NCBI GenBank assembly: GCA_947507965.1 | Contig: CANNQU010000019.1 | Coordinates: 1 to 46,277, forward strand | Direction of reading: 5' to 3' | DNA from: Bacteroidota bacterium | GTDB taxonomy: Bacteria; Bacteroidota; Bacteroidia; UKL13-3 | Length of the DNA stretch: 46,277 nt | Shown: in pieces, positions 1 to 15,934 of the stretch | Position numbering within the stretch: position 1 is the first letter of the stretch | Layout of the letters: each line of letters starts with the position of its first letter | Position numbers and translations under genes: made by a program | Notes under the pieces: generated by a model | Seen by the model: only the letters and a program-made list of their open reading frames with translations | The model's database searches: none | What the model was told of the DNA's origin: nothing

Positions 1-252
1 GATGAATGGTGTTTTTTGGTGTTGGTTTTTGAGATCCTTCCTTCGTCAGGATCAATACAACACGAATCTATGAATCCAATTATCCGTCGCTTCATGAGGG
101 TGTTGATGGTTGATGATGAGTGGTGTTTTTTTGAGATCCTTCCATCGTCTGAATACAACACTGATTATTAAGGAGGATATACGAATGAATGATGGGACAG
201 AGAAATTTGAGTAATGGATCCCATTGTATTCCTCCTGACGAAGGAAGGATCT
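1..252. repeat. cluster of degenerate dispersed repeats
   Basis: No convincing gene lies in the first 431 bases. A 22-base motif beginning gagatccttccttcgtcagg occurs at 31-52, again with changes at 133-154, and inverted at 231-252; a further copy sits at the far end of the window (46252-46273). The motif core ATCCT..AGGAT is itself an imperfect inverted repeat. A T/G-rich segment (ggtgtttttt) precedes each of the two direct copies, so 1-60 and 111-165 look like two diverged copies of one longer unit. Similar AGATCCTTC..GGAT elements are common intergenic repeats in Bacteroidota genomes (general knowledge). The stretch 346-431 holds nothing I recognise. Confidence 0.7.
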
Positions 253-345
253 ATTGTAATTCATCTTAAAATACTTCTATCCAAGATCAATGGCAGCGAC
301 AAGGGTTTCTTTGTTCTTTCTTGACCAGCATTGGAAATTAAGCTT
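237..345 (+). repeat. 109-bp dispersed repeat, copy A
   Basis: This block matches the reverse complement of 46159-46267 over the same length without gaps, with about five single-base differences counted by eye. The similarity stops sharply after aattaagctt on the inner side. One frame of both copies reads a similar peptide core (SLF.LDQHWKLS). In copy A a TAA stop lies close upstream in that frame, and several differences change the residue, so it does not look like a conserved gene. It is best read as one copy of a dispersed intergenic repeat. Confidence 0.85.
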
Positions 346-11948: not shown

Positions 11949-12025
11949 GGACTTGTAGCTCAGATGGTTAGAGCATCTGACTCATAATCAGGGGGTCCTT
12001 GGTTCGATCCCAAGCTGGTCCACCA
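11949..12025 (+). tRNA. tRNA with CAU anticodon (elongator Met or Ile2)
   Basis: A full cloverleaf can be drawn: acceptor GGACTTG with CTGGTCC, D-arm GCTC..GAGC, anticodon arm TCTGA-CTCATAA-TCAGG with anticodon CAT, T-arm CTTGG-TTCGATC-CCAAG, discriminator A and an encoded CCA end. The G1-C72 pair and the lack of three G-C pairs in the anticodon stem exclude the initiator tRNA. Elongator Met and lysidine-modified Ile2 cannot be separated by eye. The acceptor stem has a T6-T67 mismatch and a T5-G68 wobble. Confidence 0.93.
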
Positions 12026-12146: not shown

Positions 12147-12163
12147 TTCGTATATTTGCGAAT
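12147..12163 (+). promoter_or_regulatory. ArsR operator O1 overlapping the arsR -7 element
   Basis: TTCGTATATTTGCGAAT is an imperfect palindrome (TTCG..CGAA arms) and matches the second operator at 12499-12515 at 15 of 17 positions. It contains TATATTTG (12151-12158), a perfect -7 element, so a bound repressor would block the arsR promoter. The arsR ATG is 18 bases beyond the palindrome. A good -33 is not visible. Confidence 0.65.
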
Positions 12164-12180
12164 AGATATATTGCAGATAA

Positions 12181-12480
12181 ATGACTAAAGCAAAAGAAAA
12201 ATACACCACGAAGCAAGAACTTATCGCCAAATTTGGTAAAGCACTTGGAAACCCGGTTCGAGTATCCATATTGCAATTATTGTCGAAACAAAGCTGCTGC
12301 TACCATGGCGATATGGCTGATGAACTTCCCATTGCTAACAGTACTTTGTCGCAGCATTTGAAAGTTTTAAAAGAAGCCGGACTGATTCAAGGTGAAATAA
12401 ATCCGCCAAAAACCAAATATTGTATTAATATAGAAAACTGGAATTTGGCAAAGGGATTAATGATCGGTTTTTTTGATTGA
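12181..12480 (+). CDS. arsR: ArsR/SmtB-family metalloregulator
   Basis: A 99-residue winged-helix repressor of the ArsR/SmtB family, which binds operator DNA as a dimer and lets go when As(III) or a related thiophilic ion binds its cysteines. Visible: GKALGNPVRVSILQLL (N-terminal helices), the recognition helix STLSQHLKVLKEAGLI, and a wing ending in KTKYCIN. A Cys pair in KQSCCYHGD sits just before the segment equivalent to the classical ELCVCDL motif, displaced by two to three residues, and a single Cys (YC) lies in the wing. It heads an arsenic-type operon and has two matching palindromes, one in its own promoter and one before the next gene, consistent with autoregulation plus control of the operon. 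Confidence 0.88.
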   Translation: MTKAKEKYTTKQELIAKFGKALGNPVRVSILQLLSKQSCCYHGDMADELPIANSTLSQHLKVLKEAGLIQGEINPPKTKYCINIENWNLAKGLMIGFFD

Positions 12481-12497
12481 AATAATATTAACTTTAT

Positions 12498-12515
12498 ATT
12501 CGTATATATACGAAT
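12498..12515 (+). promoter_or_regulatory. ArsR operator O2, perfect 18-bp palindrome
   Basis: ATTCGTATATATACGAAT is a perfect 18-bp inverted repeat between arsR and the next gene. It shares 15 of 17 bases with the palindrome in the arsR promoter. It covers the -33 region of a candidate promoter whose -7 element lies at 12522-12529, so repressor binding would block polymerase. Confidence 0.7.
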
Positions 12516-12529
12516 GATATCTATCTTTG
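12499..12529 (+). promoter_or_regulatory. second promoter of the arsenic operon
   Basis: TATCTTTG at 12522-12529 is an exact -7 match. TTCG at 12499-12502, a one-base variant of the -33 TTTG, lies 19 bases upstream inside operator O2. It would transcribe the five genes after arsR. An AGGAG ribosome-binding site at 12533-12537 is followed four bases later by ATG 12542, one of the few clear Shine-Dalgarno sites in the window. Confidence 0.65.
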
Positions 12530-12541
12530 CAAAGGAGAATT

Positions 12542-12793
12542 ATGCCACCCATCGAAATGAAAAACATCAAGGTATTAGGCACCGGTTGCTCAAAATGCAA
12601 AACCACCTATAACAACGTTTTGGAAGCCTTAAAACAATTGAACATGCAGGCTGAGGTTATTAAAATTGAAGACATCGAAGAAATGATGAAGTACAATGTA
12701 CTTACAACTCCTGTACTAATGATTGACGAAGTTGTAAAAGTAAAGGGTAGAGTCGCTGATATTACTGAAATCAAACAATTTTTAACGAGTTAA
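12542..12793 (+). CDS. TM0996/MTH895-type small thioredoxin-fold protein
   Basis: An 83-residue thioredoxin-fold protein of the TM0996/MTH895 glutaredoxin-like group (redox-active disulfide protein 2). The redox motif CSKC is at residues 16-19 after KVLGTG, and TTPVLMIDE gives the conserved cis-Pro. The start is set at 12542 because an AGGAG site lies just upstream and the only upstream codon is a TTG inside the promoter; ATG 12557 (MKNIKV) is an alternative. Small proteins of this kind regularly sit next to ArsP-type permeases and ArsF/ArsG genes, probably as thiol reductants. It may correspond to the ArsE component of ArsEFG systems, but I am not certain of that equivalence. Confidence 0.85.
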   Translation: MPPIEMKNIKVLGTGCSKCKTTYNNVLEALKQLNMQAEVIKIEDIEEMMKYNVLTTPVLMIDEVVKVKGRVADITEIKQFLTS

Positions 12794-12809: not shown

Positions 12810-13268
12810 ATGGAAAACCAAACATTAGTCAATGAAATTTGCCCGACCACAACTCAACAATGGGTTAAGAATGGTGCATTATTAGTTGATGTTCGTGAAA
12901 AAGACGAAGTGGCTCAATTGGCTTATGATGTGCCGAACATCATCAATATTCCTTTAAGTGTATTCGAGGATCACGTTATAGAAATTCCAAAAGACCAAGA
13001 GGTGGTTTTAGTTTGTAAAGGAGGCGGAAGAAGTTTGCGAGCCGCAGGATTTTTAATCAATAACGGCTATGAAAAAGAAAAGGTAGTGAATATGAAACAT
13101 GGAATCATCCGTTGGATTCAAAAAGGATTTCCAACAAAAGGCGACACCTCATCAGTTTTAACCAATGCCGCTACCAGCAGTTGCTGCGGAGACTCATCAG
13201 AAGTGAAAACGTCAAAAGACACTTCCTGTTGCTCCAGTCCAAACAGTGACGGAAGTTCGTGTTGTTAA
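12810..13268 (+). CDS. cytoplasmic rhodanese with Cys-pair tail
   Basis: A 152-residue single rhodanese domain (about 12-115) followed by a low-complexity tail. Rhodaneses carry persulfide sulfur on an active-site Cys; here it is Cys 69 in the loop VCKGGGRS, after the LLVDVRE motif. There is no signal peptide, so it should act in the cytoplasm. The tail (about 118-152) is rich in Ser, Thr, Lys and Asp and holds three vicinal Cys pairs at 125-126, 140-141 and 151-152, the last being the C-terminus itself. Vicinal cysteines bind trivalent arsenic tightly, so the tail may hold or pass As(III); this is inference. It lies 16 bases after the thioredoxin gene and 14 before the permease gene, in one operon. 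Confidence 0.85.
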   Translation: MENQTLVNEICPTTTQQWVKNGALLVDVREKDEVAQLAYDVPNIINIPLSVFEDHVIEIPKDQEVVLVCKGGGRSLRAAGFLINNGYEKEKVVNMKHGIIRWIQKGFPTKGDTSSVLTNAATSSCCGDSSEVKTSKDTSCCSSPNSDGSSCC

Positions 13269-13282
13269 TATAAATCCCTACC

Positions 13283-14257
13283 ATGTTTACTTGGCTAAAA
13301 TATTTTGCCGATTGGCTTATTTTTTCAGCATTTGGCATTTCGGCTCAAAGCCATTTAGGTGAAGCCCTGAATTTCTTTGTTCTCGACACGATTAAGATTG
13401 CCATCTTACTTTTTATAATCACTACCGTGATGGGAATGGTCAATTCATATTTCCCCGTTGAGAAAGTACGTAATTTTTTAAGTCGCAATAAAATGTATGG
13501 CTTGGAATATGTCTTCGCCTCTTCTTTCGGAGTGGTTACGCCTTTCTGTTCTTGCTCGTCAGTTCCTTTATTCATTGGTTTTGTAAAAGGAGGTATTCCA
13601 TTGGGAATAACTTTTACATACCTAATTACCGCTCCTCTAGTGAATGAAGTTGCGATTGCCATTTTTGCAGGGGCTTTTGGTTTTAAGGTTACGGCGATTT
13701 ATGTAATCACTGGAATTGTTTTAGGGATAACCGGTGGCTTTGTTTTAGGTAAATTAAAATTAGAGAAATATCTTTCGACTTGGGTGCAAAATATCATTAC
13801 CAATGCGCAAACAGAGGAAGCGTTAGAGATTGAAAAACGATCCTTGACACAACGATTTCCAAACATTCTTAAGGAGGCTTTCACAATTGTAAAAGGAGTT
13901 GGTATTTATATCATAATTGGCATTGGTATCGGCGCTGCCATGCATGGTTTTCTGCCGACTAGTTTTTTCGAACATTATATTAACAAGGGTCAATGGTATG
14001 CCGTTCCGCTTGCTGTGATCATGGGCGTTCCAATGTATAGTAATGCCGCTGGTGTTATTCCGGTAGTACAAGTTTTGGTGGCCAAAGGTGTTCCACTCGG
14101 TACTGCTATTGCTTTCATGATGGGTGTTGTAGGACTATCATTACCGGAAGCGATGCTTTTGAAAAAAGTGATGAATATGAAGCTAATCGCTATTTATTTT
14201 TCAACCATTGCTTTTTTAATGATTCTATCGGGATATTTATTCAATATAATTTTATAG
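13283..14257 (+). CDS. arsP: ArsP-type permease (organoarsenical efflux)
   Basis: A 324-residue membrane protein of the ArsP_1/DUF318 permease family with about eight to ten helices in two halves. The diagnostic motif TPFCSCSSVPLF carries Cys 89 and Cys 91; in characterised ArsP proteins cysteines of this motif take part in exporting trivalent organoarsenicals such as methyl- or phenyl-arsenite. The second half has the related MGVPMYSNAAGVIPV and FMMGVVGLSLPE motifs. Other members of the family move other substrates, but the ArsR and ArsG neighbours support an arsenical role. There is a soluble cytoplasmic loop around 160-200. Confidence 0.85.
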   Translation: MFTWLKYFADWLIFSAFGISAQSHLGEALNFFVLDTIKIAILLFIITTVMGMVNSYFPVEKVRNFLSRNKMYGLEYVFASSFGVVTPFCSCSSVPLFIGFVKGGIPLGITFTYLITAPLVNEVAIAIFAGAFGFKVTAIYVITGIVLGITGGFVLGKLKLEKYLSTWVQNIITNAQTEEALEIEKRSLTQRFPNILKEAFTIVKGVGIYIIIGIGIGAAMHGFLPTSFFEHYINKGQWYAVPLAVIMGVPMYSNAAGVIPVVQVLVAKGVPLGTAIAFMMGVVGLSLPEAMLLKKVMNMKLIAIYFSTIAFLMILSGYLFNIIL

Positions 14258-14328: not shown

Positions 14329-15222
14329 ATGCAAAAAGTAATTTTTACCATCGCCTTTCTTGCCGGCATATTTAGTTTGTCCTGCAATTCAAACAGCTCG
14401 TCAAAAAATAATAAAAGCGAGAAAGAAACGATAACGGTAACGGAAGCTGATATATTACTTAAAGAAGGGGCAATTTTAGTTGATGTGCGGGATCCAGATG
14501 AATTGGAGACCCAATCCTATGATGTGAAAGAGGTTAAAAATATTCCTTTGGCAGAGATAGAAACACGTTTAACGGAAATTCCTCAAGACAAACAAGTAAT
14601 TTTGGCTTGTCAGAAGGGAGGAAGAAGTAAAAATGCATTTGATTTATTAAAAGCAAAAGGATATACAAACATCTCTAATATGGAAGGTGGTATGAATGCT
14701 TGGGAGAGCGCAGGATTACCCACTAAAATAGGAAAATCGTCTGATGTAAATTCAACAGAAACAAAATCATGTTGCCCCGATCCCAATTCAAAAGATTGTA
14801 ATCCCGACGGAACGTGTAAGCCATCTTCTGATACGAATTCTTCGGAACGTAAATCCAATAGTAACAAGTCTACCAATAATGTAATTAAAAACCATTTAGA
14901 GGTGTATTGTTTTCATGGAACCCGACAGTGTGAAACCTGCATCAATATGAAGGCCAATACTAAAGCAACGTTAGATAAATACTTTTCGGAAGAACTAAAA
15001 AATGGAAGTATTACTTTTTCTATTATTGATGTGGATGAAAAAATGAATGAAATGTTGGCAGAGAAATATCAGGCAACCGGTACCGCATTAATGGTAAATA
15101 ACATGGTGGATGGTAAAGATAATATTATCGACTGGAGCGATTTTGCGTTTGATAAAGCAAACAATCCGGATAAGTTCATTCCTGAATTTAAAGTAAAAAT
15201 TGATATATTATTGAATAGGTAG
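14329..15222 (+). CDS. arsF: lipoprotein fusing rhodanese and ArsF-like domain
   Basis: A 297-residue exported protein with three parts. Residues 1-19 are a signal peptide ending in FSLSC, a loose lipobox with Cys 19. Residues about 35-133 are a rhodanese domain with active-site Cys 94 in CQKGGRS. A Ser/Lys/Asn-rich linker (134-188) contains Cys 148, 149, 157 and 163. Residues about 189-297 match what I recall as the ArsF family (nitrophenyl compound nitroreductase subunit), with a thioredoxin-like CETC at 201-204 preceded by YCFHG. ArsF works with ArsE and ArsG against nitro-aromatic arsenicals such as roxarsone (family knowledge). The family as I know it is a shorter single domain, so the rhodanese fusion is unusual. 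It is followed by arsG after one base. The product is likely anchored on the periplasmic side. Confidence 0.8.
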   Translation: MQKVIFTIAFLAGIFSLSCNSNSSSKNNKSEKETITVTEADILLKEGAILVDVRDPDELETQSYDVKEVKNIPLAEIETRLTEIPQDKQVILACQKGGRSKNAFDLLKAKGYTNISNMEGGMNAWESAGLPTKIGKSSDVNSTETKSCCPDPNSKDCNPDGTCKPSSDTNSSERKSNSNKSTNNVIKNHLEVYCFHGTRQCETCINMKANTKATLDKYFSEELKNGSITFSIIDVDEKMNEMLAEKYQATGTALMVNNMVDGKDNIIDWSDFAFDKANNPDKFIPEFKVKIDILLNR

Positions 15223-15223
15223 C

Positions 15224-15934
15224 ATGGAAACACTTCATCAATTATTGGAAAGCTCCAATATTCCAATTCTCTCTGCTCTGCTTTTAGGGTTGTTAACAGC
15301 AATAAGTCCATGTCCATTAGCAACTAACATTACCGCAACAGCCTATATTGCTAAAACACTTTCAGGTAAGAAAAAGGTTTTGTTAAGTGGATTACTTTAC
15401 ACCTTAGGGTTGGCTTTGTCCTACACCACCATTGCCACCATTATTATCTTAGGAGCCAGTAAATTTCATGTCGCAAAATTCTTTCAGGGCAATGGAGAAA
15501 AATTTGTCGGGCCTGTGATGGTCATTATTGGACTAATCATGCTTAATATCATCAAGTTTAATTTCTTAGATAAAATAAATTTCACGGAGAAGCTTCAAGA
15601 TAAATTTAAGGATAAAGGTTTACTTGGTGCCTTTTTATTGGGTGCATTATTTGCTATGGCTTTTTGTCCGTATAGTGGTGCAATGTATTTCGGAGTGTTG
15701 ATTCCGATGAGTATCAAAAGCAGCGTTGGCTTATTTTTGCCTATCTTTTATGCACTTGGGGCGGGTTCCTTGGTTCTGTTTTTCACCTTTTTAATAGCTT
15801 TTAGTATGCAAAAGGTTGGTCGATATTTTAACACGGTTACAAAAATAGAAAAGGTGATGCGAGTAGTGGCCGGTATGTTATTTTTACTCACCGGACTTTA
15901 TTATATTTTGATTTACTTAAAAATCATTCAATGA
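15224..15934 (+). CDS. arsG: ArsG-type efflux permease (DsbD-like)
   Basis: A 236-residue membrane protein with six predicted helices, related to the CcdA/DsbD transmembrane domain. It has Cys 30 in AISPCPLATN on the first helix and Cys 148 in AMAFCPYSGAMYFG at the start of the second half, the paired positions that form the redox centre in DsbD/CcdA. In ArsEFG systems this protein is named ArsG, an efflux permease for trivalent aminobenzyl-type arsenicals. An alternative is plain electron transfer to the neighbouring periplasmic thioredoxin-like domain. It starts one base after the rhodanese-ArsF gene and closes the operon. Confidence 0.82.
   Translation: METLHQLLESSNIPILSALLLGLLTAISPCPLATNITATAYIAKTLSGKKKVLLSGLLYTLGLALSYTTIATIIILGASKFHVAKFFQGNGEKFVGPVMVIIGLIMLNIIKFNFLDKINFTEKLQDKFKDKGLLGAFLLGALFAMAFCPYSGAMYFGVLIPMSIKSSVGLFLPIFYALGAGSLVLFFTFLIAFSMQKVGRYFNTVTKIEKVMRVVAGMLFLLTGLYYILIYLKIIQ

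Follow-up and report, generated by a model that had tools for sequence, protein, structure and literature searches.

Genes and Operator-Like Sites at the Locus

The window, by which we mean the whole analysed stretch of 46,277 nucleotides of Bacteroidota DNA, harbors six genes in one orientation: arsR, arsE, a rhodanese gene with a Cys-rich tail, a gene for an ArsP-type permease, a gene coding for a rhodanese joined to an ArsF domain, and arsG (Table 1). The fifth of them, hereafter the fusion, is a single open reading frame, as described in an initial annotation of this DNA, and its stop codon is separated from the start of arsG by one base. The link to ars genes claimed in the same annotation agrees with the position of the fusion in an arsR/arsE/arsG operon.

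Table 1. Features of the operon and parts of the fusion protein (nucleotide positions refer to the window, residue numbers to the fusion protein).
Feature	Position	Strand	Description
ArsR-type operator-like palindrome 1	12147..12163	.	Upstream of arsR; TTCG-N8-CGAA; TTCGTATATTTGCGAA
arsR	12181..12480	+	ArsR/SmtB-family repressor; NF033788 57.5 bits, cut-off 55; PF01022
ArsR-type operator-like palindrome 2	12499..12515	.	Between arsR and arsE; TTCG-N8-CGAA; TTCGTATATATACGAA
arsE	12557..12793	+	Small cytoplasmic thioredoxin (CxxC, cis-Pro); TIGR00412 101.7 bits, cut-off 62
Cytoplasmic rhodanese	12810..13268	+	Cys-rich tail (SCC...SCC...SCC); PF00581
ArsP_1-family permease	13283..14257	+	PF03773 219.2 bits
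Fusion gene	14329..15222	+	ATG start; 297 aa; lipoprotein-type signal, rhodanese, Cys linker, ArsF domain
Fusion, signal part			Cys19 after hydrophobic stretch
Fusion, rhodanese part	residues about 33-134		Cys94
Fusion, linker	residues about 136-185		Four cysteines
Fusion, ArsF domain	residues about 187-297		CxxC = C201/C204
arsG	15224..15934	+	CcdA/DsbD-like membrane protein; NF040495 283.2 bits, cut-off 200; PF13386 DsbD_2

Palindromes of the form TTCG-N8-CGAA would be expected about 0.008 times by chance in 535 nt, and two were observed. Palindrome 1 is found at the equivalent place in the fused loci L047, L060, L024, L025 and L061 and in L026 (loci and genomes are designated here by our own L and G numbers), palindrome 2 occupies an equivalent position in relatives, and both recur in most related operons with their places kept. 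In an alignment of relatives, ArsR shows a conserved CC...YC cysteine set. By these sequence features the six-gene unit appears to bear the marks of ArsR control, and arsenic would presumably be its inducer.

The listed reading frame of arsE starts with a TTG at 12527 and its homologues begin at MKNIKV; C10, C13 and P51 of ArsE are invariant in 16 homologues. The Cys-tailed rhodanese and the rhodanese domain of the fusion share about 41% identity. The G+C content of the operon, 36.4%, lies close to the 38.4% of the window. Directly upstream of the operon lies a tRNA-Met gene (11949-12025), which was considered as the border of a mobile element and rejected for lack of a convincing flanking repeat: the only repeat shared by the tRNA and the far side is 14 nt long and lies within arsG, so that no island is demonstrated.

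The Fusion Joins a Sulfurtransferase-Type Rhodanese to an ArsF Domain

In profile searches, residues 39-127 of the fusion matched Pfam Rhodanese PF00581 with 60.3 bits (gathering cut-off 22.2), and residues 190-292 matched NCBIfam NF040494 (ArsF) with 100.5 bits (curated cut-off 60) over profile positions 1-104 of 106. A complete rhodanese, with Cys94 at the start of the loop CQKGGRS, and a C-terminal half of the ArsF type with a CxxC motif had both been proposed in the initial annotation and are corroborated by these matches. By such assignments, every part of the protein belongs to a known family. The AlphaFold model consists of two confident domains and a flexible joint (pLDDT 83.6 overall and above 90 in most domain blocks, pTM 0.44), the linker being mostly of low confidence.

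The signal peptide with a possible lipid-carrying cysteine that had been noted before is also probable. Cys19 follows a hydrophobic stretch and is invariant in five fusions; the lipobox in the window, S-L-S-C, is slightly off consensus, and those of related fusions (ILSC, IMSC, IASC) are clearer. From this predicted signal, the fusion is probably a lipoprotein. The four linker cysteines (CCPDPNSKDCNPDGTC) are a trait of the window protein and not a universal one, because they are missing in L024, one of seven fusions; the other six have them, and the unfused rhodanese of L071 ends in cysteines of this kind at its C-terminus.

The rhodanese domain superposes on 3tp9 with a VIA-align Z of 18.2 and an rmsd of 1.3 over 100 residues, and its best structural matches include the persulfide-handling proteins CoADR-RHD, Npsr and a persulfide dioxygenase-rhodanese. 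When the model of the whole fusion was used in VIA-align and Foldseek, rhodaneses took up the lists of matches. The active-site loop is the six-residue C-x4-R loop of sulfurtransferases, present as C-x4-RS in nine of nine sequences of the fusion-type rhodanese; an arsenate reductase of the Acr2/Cdc25 kind was rejected, since the loop is not C-x5-R. CoADR-RHD, Npsr, BpPRF and the Wolinella Sud polysulfide transferase share the C-x4-R rhodanese and are among the best sequence or structure matches, with the match extending over the rhodanese only. The partner domain differs: here it is thioredoxin-like, has a CxxC and forms part of a predicted lipoprotein, whereas it is a flavoprotein or a dioxygenase in CoADR-RHD, Npsr and BpPRF. 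YgaP of the E. coli inner membrane is, as the fusion probably is, a membrane-attached protein with a single rhodanese domain, but it is anchored by transmembrane helices and lacks an ArsF domain.

The Fusion Is Recurrent, Rare and Patchily Distributed

Contig scans and whole-genome searches revealed the identical architecture in seven Bacteroidota loci including the window, the other six being L047 (G396), L023 (the same as L060; G675), L024, L025, L061 (G472) and L070 (G757). All six exceed the cut-off of the ArsF profile. The fusion of L047 comes from the same genus as the window (81%), and a comparison of the two gives dN/dS values of about 0.11 (rhodanese) and 0.09 (ArsF); at values of about 0.1, both domains appear to be under purifying selection. 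Recurrence in six other loci together with this constraint excludes a frameshift, or a sequencing or assembly error, joining two genes, a source of error that the initial annotation had raised. An accidental fusion with no joint function, or an artefact of assembly, would fit with the interleaving of fused and unfused forms in the trees described below, but the seven loci, the low dN/dS in both domains and the conserved gene order speak against it; this explanation is largely refuted by the seven loci and we consider it highly improbable.

The fusion was detected in two of 64 genomes of the window's order, in four of the 395 from its class, a count that includes the window's own genome, and in three of 36 genomes of another order. 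The 349 genomes of the family of G107 yielded no fusion and only separate arsF genes. Among the genomes sampled, the fusion is therefore rare and patchy; the profile sampling covered Bacteroidota, and the contig scan covered close relatives in all phyla. In plasmid records, no match covered 80% of the fusion query and the best matches were to the rhodanese only.

In L026 (Flavobacterium sp. ZT3R18) and L071, arsG is preceded by two neighbouring genes in the order of the fused domains, one for a lipoprotein-type rhodanese and then a free-standing arsF, and each such ArsF has its own N-terminal hydrophobic segment. The pairing of rhodanese and ArsF is thus independent of the fusion, while arsF without this rhodanese occurs in many other loci. 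The ArsF tree places all seven fusions in a set of ten rows (support 99/97) that also takes in the adjacent form of L071, as well as L062 and L072, which have no such rhodanese. In the rhodanese tree, L025 pairs with the unfused L026 (96/96) and L024 with the unfused L071 (90/93). Since fused and unfused forms are mixed in both trees, fusion, splitting, loss or exchange occurred repeatedly around a recurring rhodanese-ArsF pair. The fusion was not found in the literature searched, in keeping with the earlier impression that it is undescribed, and neither was a paper joining rhodanese, CcdA and arsenic in this manner.

The ArsF Domain Has a Predicted Thioredoxin Topology and Lacks the Cis-Proline

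DSSP applied to the model of the whole fusion gave the order beta-alpha-beta-alpha-beta-beta-alpha for the ArsF domain, with the CxxC at the start of helix 1 and pLDDT above 90, so that the domain is predicted to have thioredoxin topology. Matches of the ArsF profile to disulfide oxidoreductases and thioredoxins were weak (best E 0.002) and in register at the CxxC. The motif F-H-x3-[QR]-C-x2-C corresponds to F195, H196, C201 and C204 of the fusion, and its F-H and CxxC are invariant in 23 sequences. At the cis-proline position before strand 3, none of these 23 sequences has a proline, in contrast to ArsE, which keeps it as P51; for this reason we do not class ArsF as a classical thioredoxin.

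The cis-proline may keep metals off a CxxC, according to a statement in PMC2757866 that cites Su et al. 2007. ArsF, which lacks this residue, might therefore hold arsenic or a metal centre at its CxxC. The main rival of the thiol relay proposed below is that the fusion is an arsenic-binding trap or chaperone, in which As(III) or organoarsenicals would be captured in the periplasm by the linker cysteines (CC...C...C), the rhodanese cysteine and the CxxC of ArsF, with a relay that only keeps these thiols reduced. The absent proline set against the invariant P51 of ArsE, the retention of linker cysteines in most fusions and in the L071 rhodanese, and the CC-rich tails on the other rhodanese of the operon and on ArsM of L023 all fit such a role. 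On the other hand, L024 has lost the linker cysteines, and every copy of the rhodanese has an intact active-site loop, as would be expected of a catalyst more than of a passive binder. We regard a trap as unlikely, though worth keeping in view.

ArsG Resembles the Membrane Electron Transporter CcdA

ArsG exceeds the cut-off of NF040495, a family named as an efflux permease, and its Pfam family is DsbD_2, matched with 57 bits against a cut-off of 24.9. In Foldseek, the best PDB match of the ArsG model was CcdA (5vkv; probability 1.00, TM 0.50/0.53), and 5vkv was also the sole match of the ArsG profile to PDB sequences at E values up to 10 (E 8e-4). The SPCP of ArsG aligns on the SPCV of CcdA with the first cysteine in register, and the second cysteine is one residue off the CcdA position (FCP versus TPC). 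Neither of the two membrane cysteines, Cys30 (SPCP) and Cys148 (FCP), varies among 14 homologues. The confidence of the ArsG model is modest (pLDDT 69.8), and in VIA-align it reaches a Z of 7.5, a score that unrelated transporters equal. L043 and L046, in which no arsG was found nearby, retain arsE and arsF and encode in addition a periplasmic thioredoxin and a DsbD_TM/CcdA protein.

As judged from sequence and model, ArsG looks like a CcdA-like membrane electron transporter. It shares with CcdA/DsbD the DsbD_2 match, the SPCP motif, the best structural match and the two invariant cysteines, and differs in the shifted second cysteine, in the cytoplasmic ArsE encoded alongside, and in being published as an efflux transporter: PMC9144182, in a passage citing the 2019 ArsEFG paper among others, lists ArsG among efflux transporters of organic arsenicals. 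Our reading departs from this published label, and the Pfam family already hints at it. The initial annotation had not noticed the resemblance to CcdA, which alters the mechanism to be proposed.

Comparison with Known ArsEFG Systems and Arsenic Context of Related Loci

The ArsEFG system of Shewanella putrefaciens was reportedly described by Chen, Zhang and Rosen in 2019, and the family name "nitroreductase subunit" appears to originate there; this work is cited in PMC9144182 and PMC10190100. The same three families (TIGR00412, NF040494 and NF040495) are present in the window, all over their curated cut-offs, and in most related loci arsF stands directly 5' of arsG. Unlike in Shewanella, the ArsF of the window follows a rhodanese within one probable lipoprotein, and the operon has two further genes, one for another rhodanese, with a Cys tail, and one for an ArsP-type permease.

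The fusion might act in an ArsEF nitroreductase converting nitro-phenylarsenicals to amines, with the sulfur chemistry of the rhodanese assisting and ArsG exporting the product. The scores of ArsF and ArsG over the curated cut-offs of families named for that function, the presence of ArsE and the listing of ArsG among organoarsenical exporters in the passage of PMC9144182 favor this view. However, profile searches with NCBIfam and Pfam found no flavin or other nitroreductase domain in the operon, relatives lie beside the inorganic-arsenic genes ACR3, ArsC and ArsA/D, and ArsG resembles CcdA. The sequences neither support nor exclude a nitroreductase directly, and the idea goes back to the family name and the 2019 paper as cited in those texts; we consider it improbable. 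The initial annotation had connected ArsF with the reduction of nitro-aromatic arsenicals, a claim weakened by the same lack of a nitroreductase domain, by the predicted topology of ArsF as a CxxC protein and by relatives placed beside ACR3, ArsC, ArsM or ArsA/D. Of its broader proposal that thiol or sulfane-sulfur chemistry takes part in detoxifying such arsenicals, persulfide or thiol chemistry in the periplasm can fairly be proposed, while the nitro-aromatic specificity finds no support in the sequences.

The arsenic link is stronger in relatives than in the operon of the window. ArsM adjoins the fused L023, ACR3 and an ArsC-like gene occur in the fused L025, and many unfused related loci have ACR3, ArsC, ArsM or ArsA/D. 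Most related loci possess an ArsP-type permease. These neighbours argue against a periplasmic system for persulfide or sulfide homeostasis that answers general thiol stress, with arsenic as merely one inducer. Genes for rhodanese, thioredoxin, OsmC and DinB/mycothiol-S-transferase-like proteins, variously combined in these operons, are compatible with homeostasis, as is the inclusion of sulfur sensors in the ArsR family, where the match to BigR (NF040642) is weak and far below the cut-off. Such a system seems to us quite improbable.

A Thiol Relay May End in the Fusion

We propose, with a confidence that stays somewhat short of even, that a thiol relay induced by arsenic runs from ArsE through ArsG and ArsF to the rhodanese, and that the fusion, anchored by lipid and facing the periplasm, forms its end. 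ArsE, as cytoplasmic CxxC thioredoxin, would reduce ArsG, which would pass electrons outward via its two membrane cysteines and reduce the CxxC of the ArsF domain. The fusion would hold ArsF beside the rhodanese, whose Cys94 would take sulfane sulfur, and ArsF may then reduce the Cys94 persulfide, with sulfide released or the sulfur handed on, or may keep the thiols of rhodanese and linker reduced. Once exported by the ArsP-type permease, arsenicals could thus encounter sulfide or reduced thiols outside the cytoplasm. The direction of electron flow, the rhodanese as acceptor, the reduction of its persulfide, the release of sulfide and the arsenic substrate are what we infer from these proteins.

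The proposal is based on the operon-like order of six co-oriented genes with two ArsR-type operator-like palindromes, on the invariant CxxC and cis-proline of ArsE, on the CcdA resemblance of ArsG with its invariant cysteines, and on the predicted topology and invariant CxxC of ArsF, together with the replacement of arsG by a CcdA homologue in L043 and L046. It also draws on the rhodanese-arsF pairing without fusion, the persulfide-type structural matches, the C-x4-R loop and the arsenic genes beside the fused L023 and L025. Counting against the relay are the literature label of ArsG as an organoarsenical efflux protein, the modest confidence of the ArsG model and its tied VIA-align Z, the missing cis-proline of ArsF and the second cysteine of ArsG that is off by one. 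Furthermore, L062 and L072 belong to the same ArsF clade and do without the rhodanese lipoprotein, so the rhodanese is dispensable.

More tentatively, ArsEFG-type systems in general could represent a split DsbD, with ArsE as thioredoxin, ArsG as conduit and ArsF as periplasmic acceptor, and not an efflux pump plus nitroreductase; here, the fusion of acceptor and rhodanese would allow electrons from the cytoplasm to power persulfide reduction or arsenic-thiol chemistry in the periplasm as a means of resistance. If so, ArsG would be recast from efflux pump to electron carrier, the grouping of a thioredoxin gene with genes for a membrane protein and a CxxC protein of the periplasm would be explained, and powered sulfur chemistry in the periplasm would join the known bacterial routes of arsenic resistance. 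The fusion points to a likely partner of ArsF and makes the mechanism testable in one construct.

Other Genes in the Window's Genome and in Related Operons

The window's genome has an ACR3 arsenite exporter on another contig (G000:C68:6097-7086; L083), unlinked to the operon. In many related operons, an FmdE-family protein (PF02663, tested in L023) with an apparent signal peptide is encoded 3' of arsG (L023:6583-7236, L026:6648-7307, L061:36-761, L070:3606, L062:5217, L063:2493, L072:4686); in the window no such gene follows arsG. The interval between arsE and the permease is occupied either by the Cys-tailed rhodanese, as in the window (12810-13268) and relatives, or by an OsmC-like protein (L038:5232-5639, L078:7345, L079:4460, L081:7339), never by both in the loci seen. 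In some operons (L026:4521-4985, L025:4307, L063:4280), a gene for a DinB/mycothiol-S-transferase-like protein (PF12867, PF04978) separates the permease gene from arsF or the rhodanese gene. The more distant arsF loci L043:7080-8365, L046:6786-8818 and L037:5998-6623 encode two thioredoxins of the ArsE type, a separate thioredoxin of the periplasm near the permease, or both.
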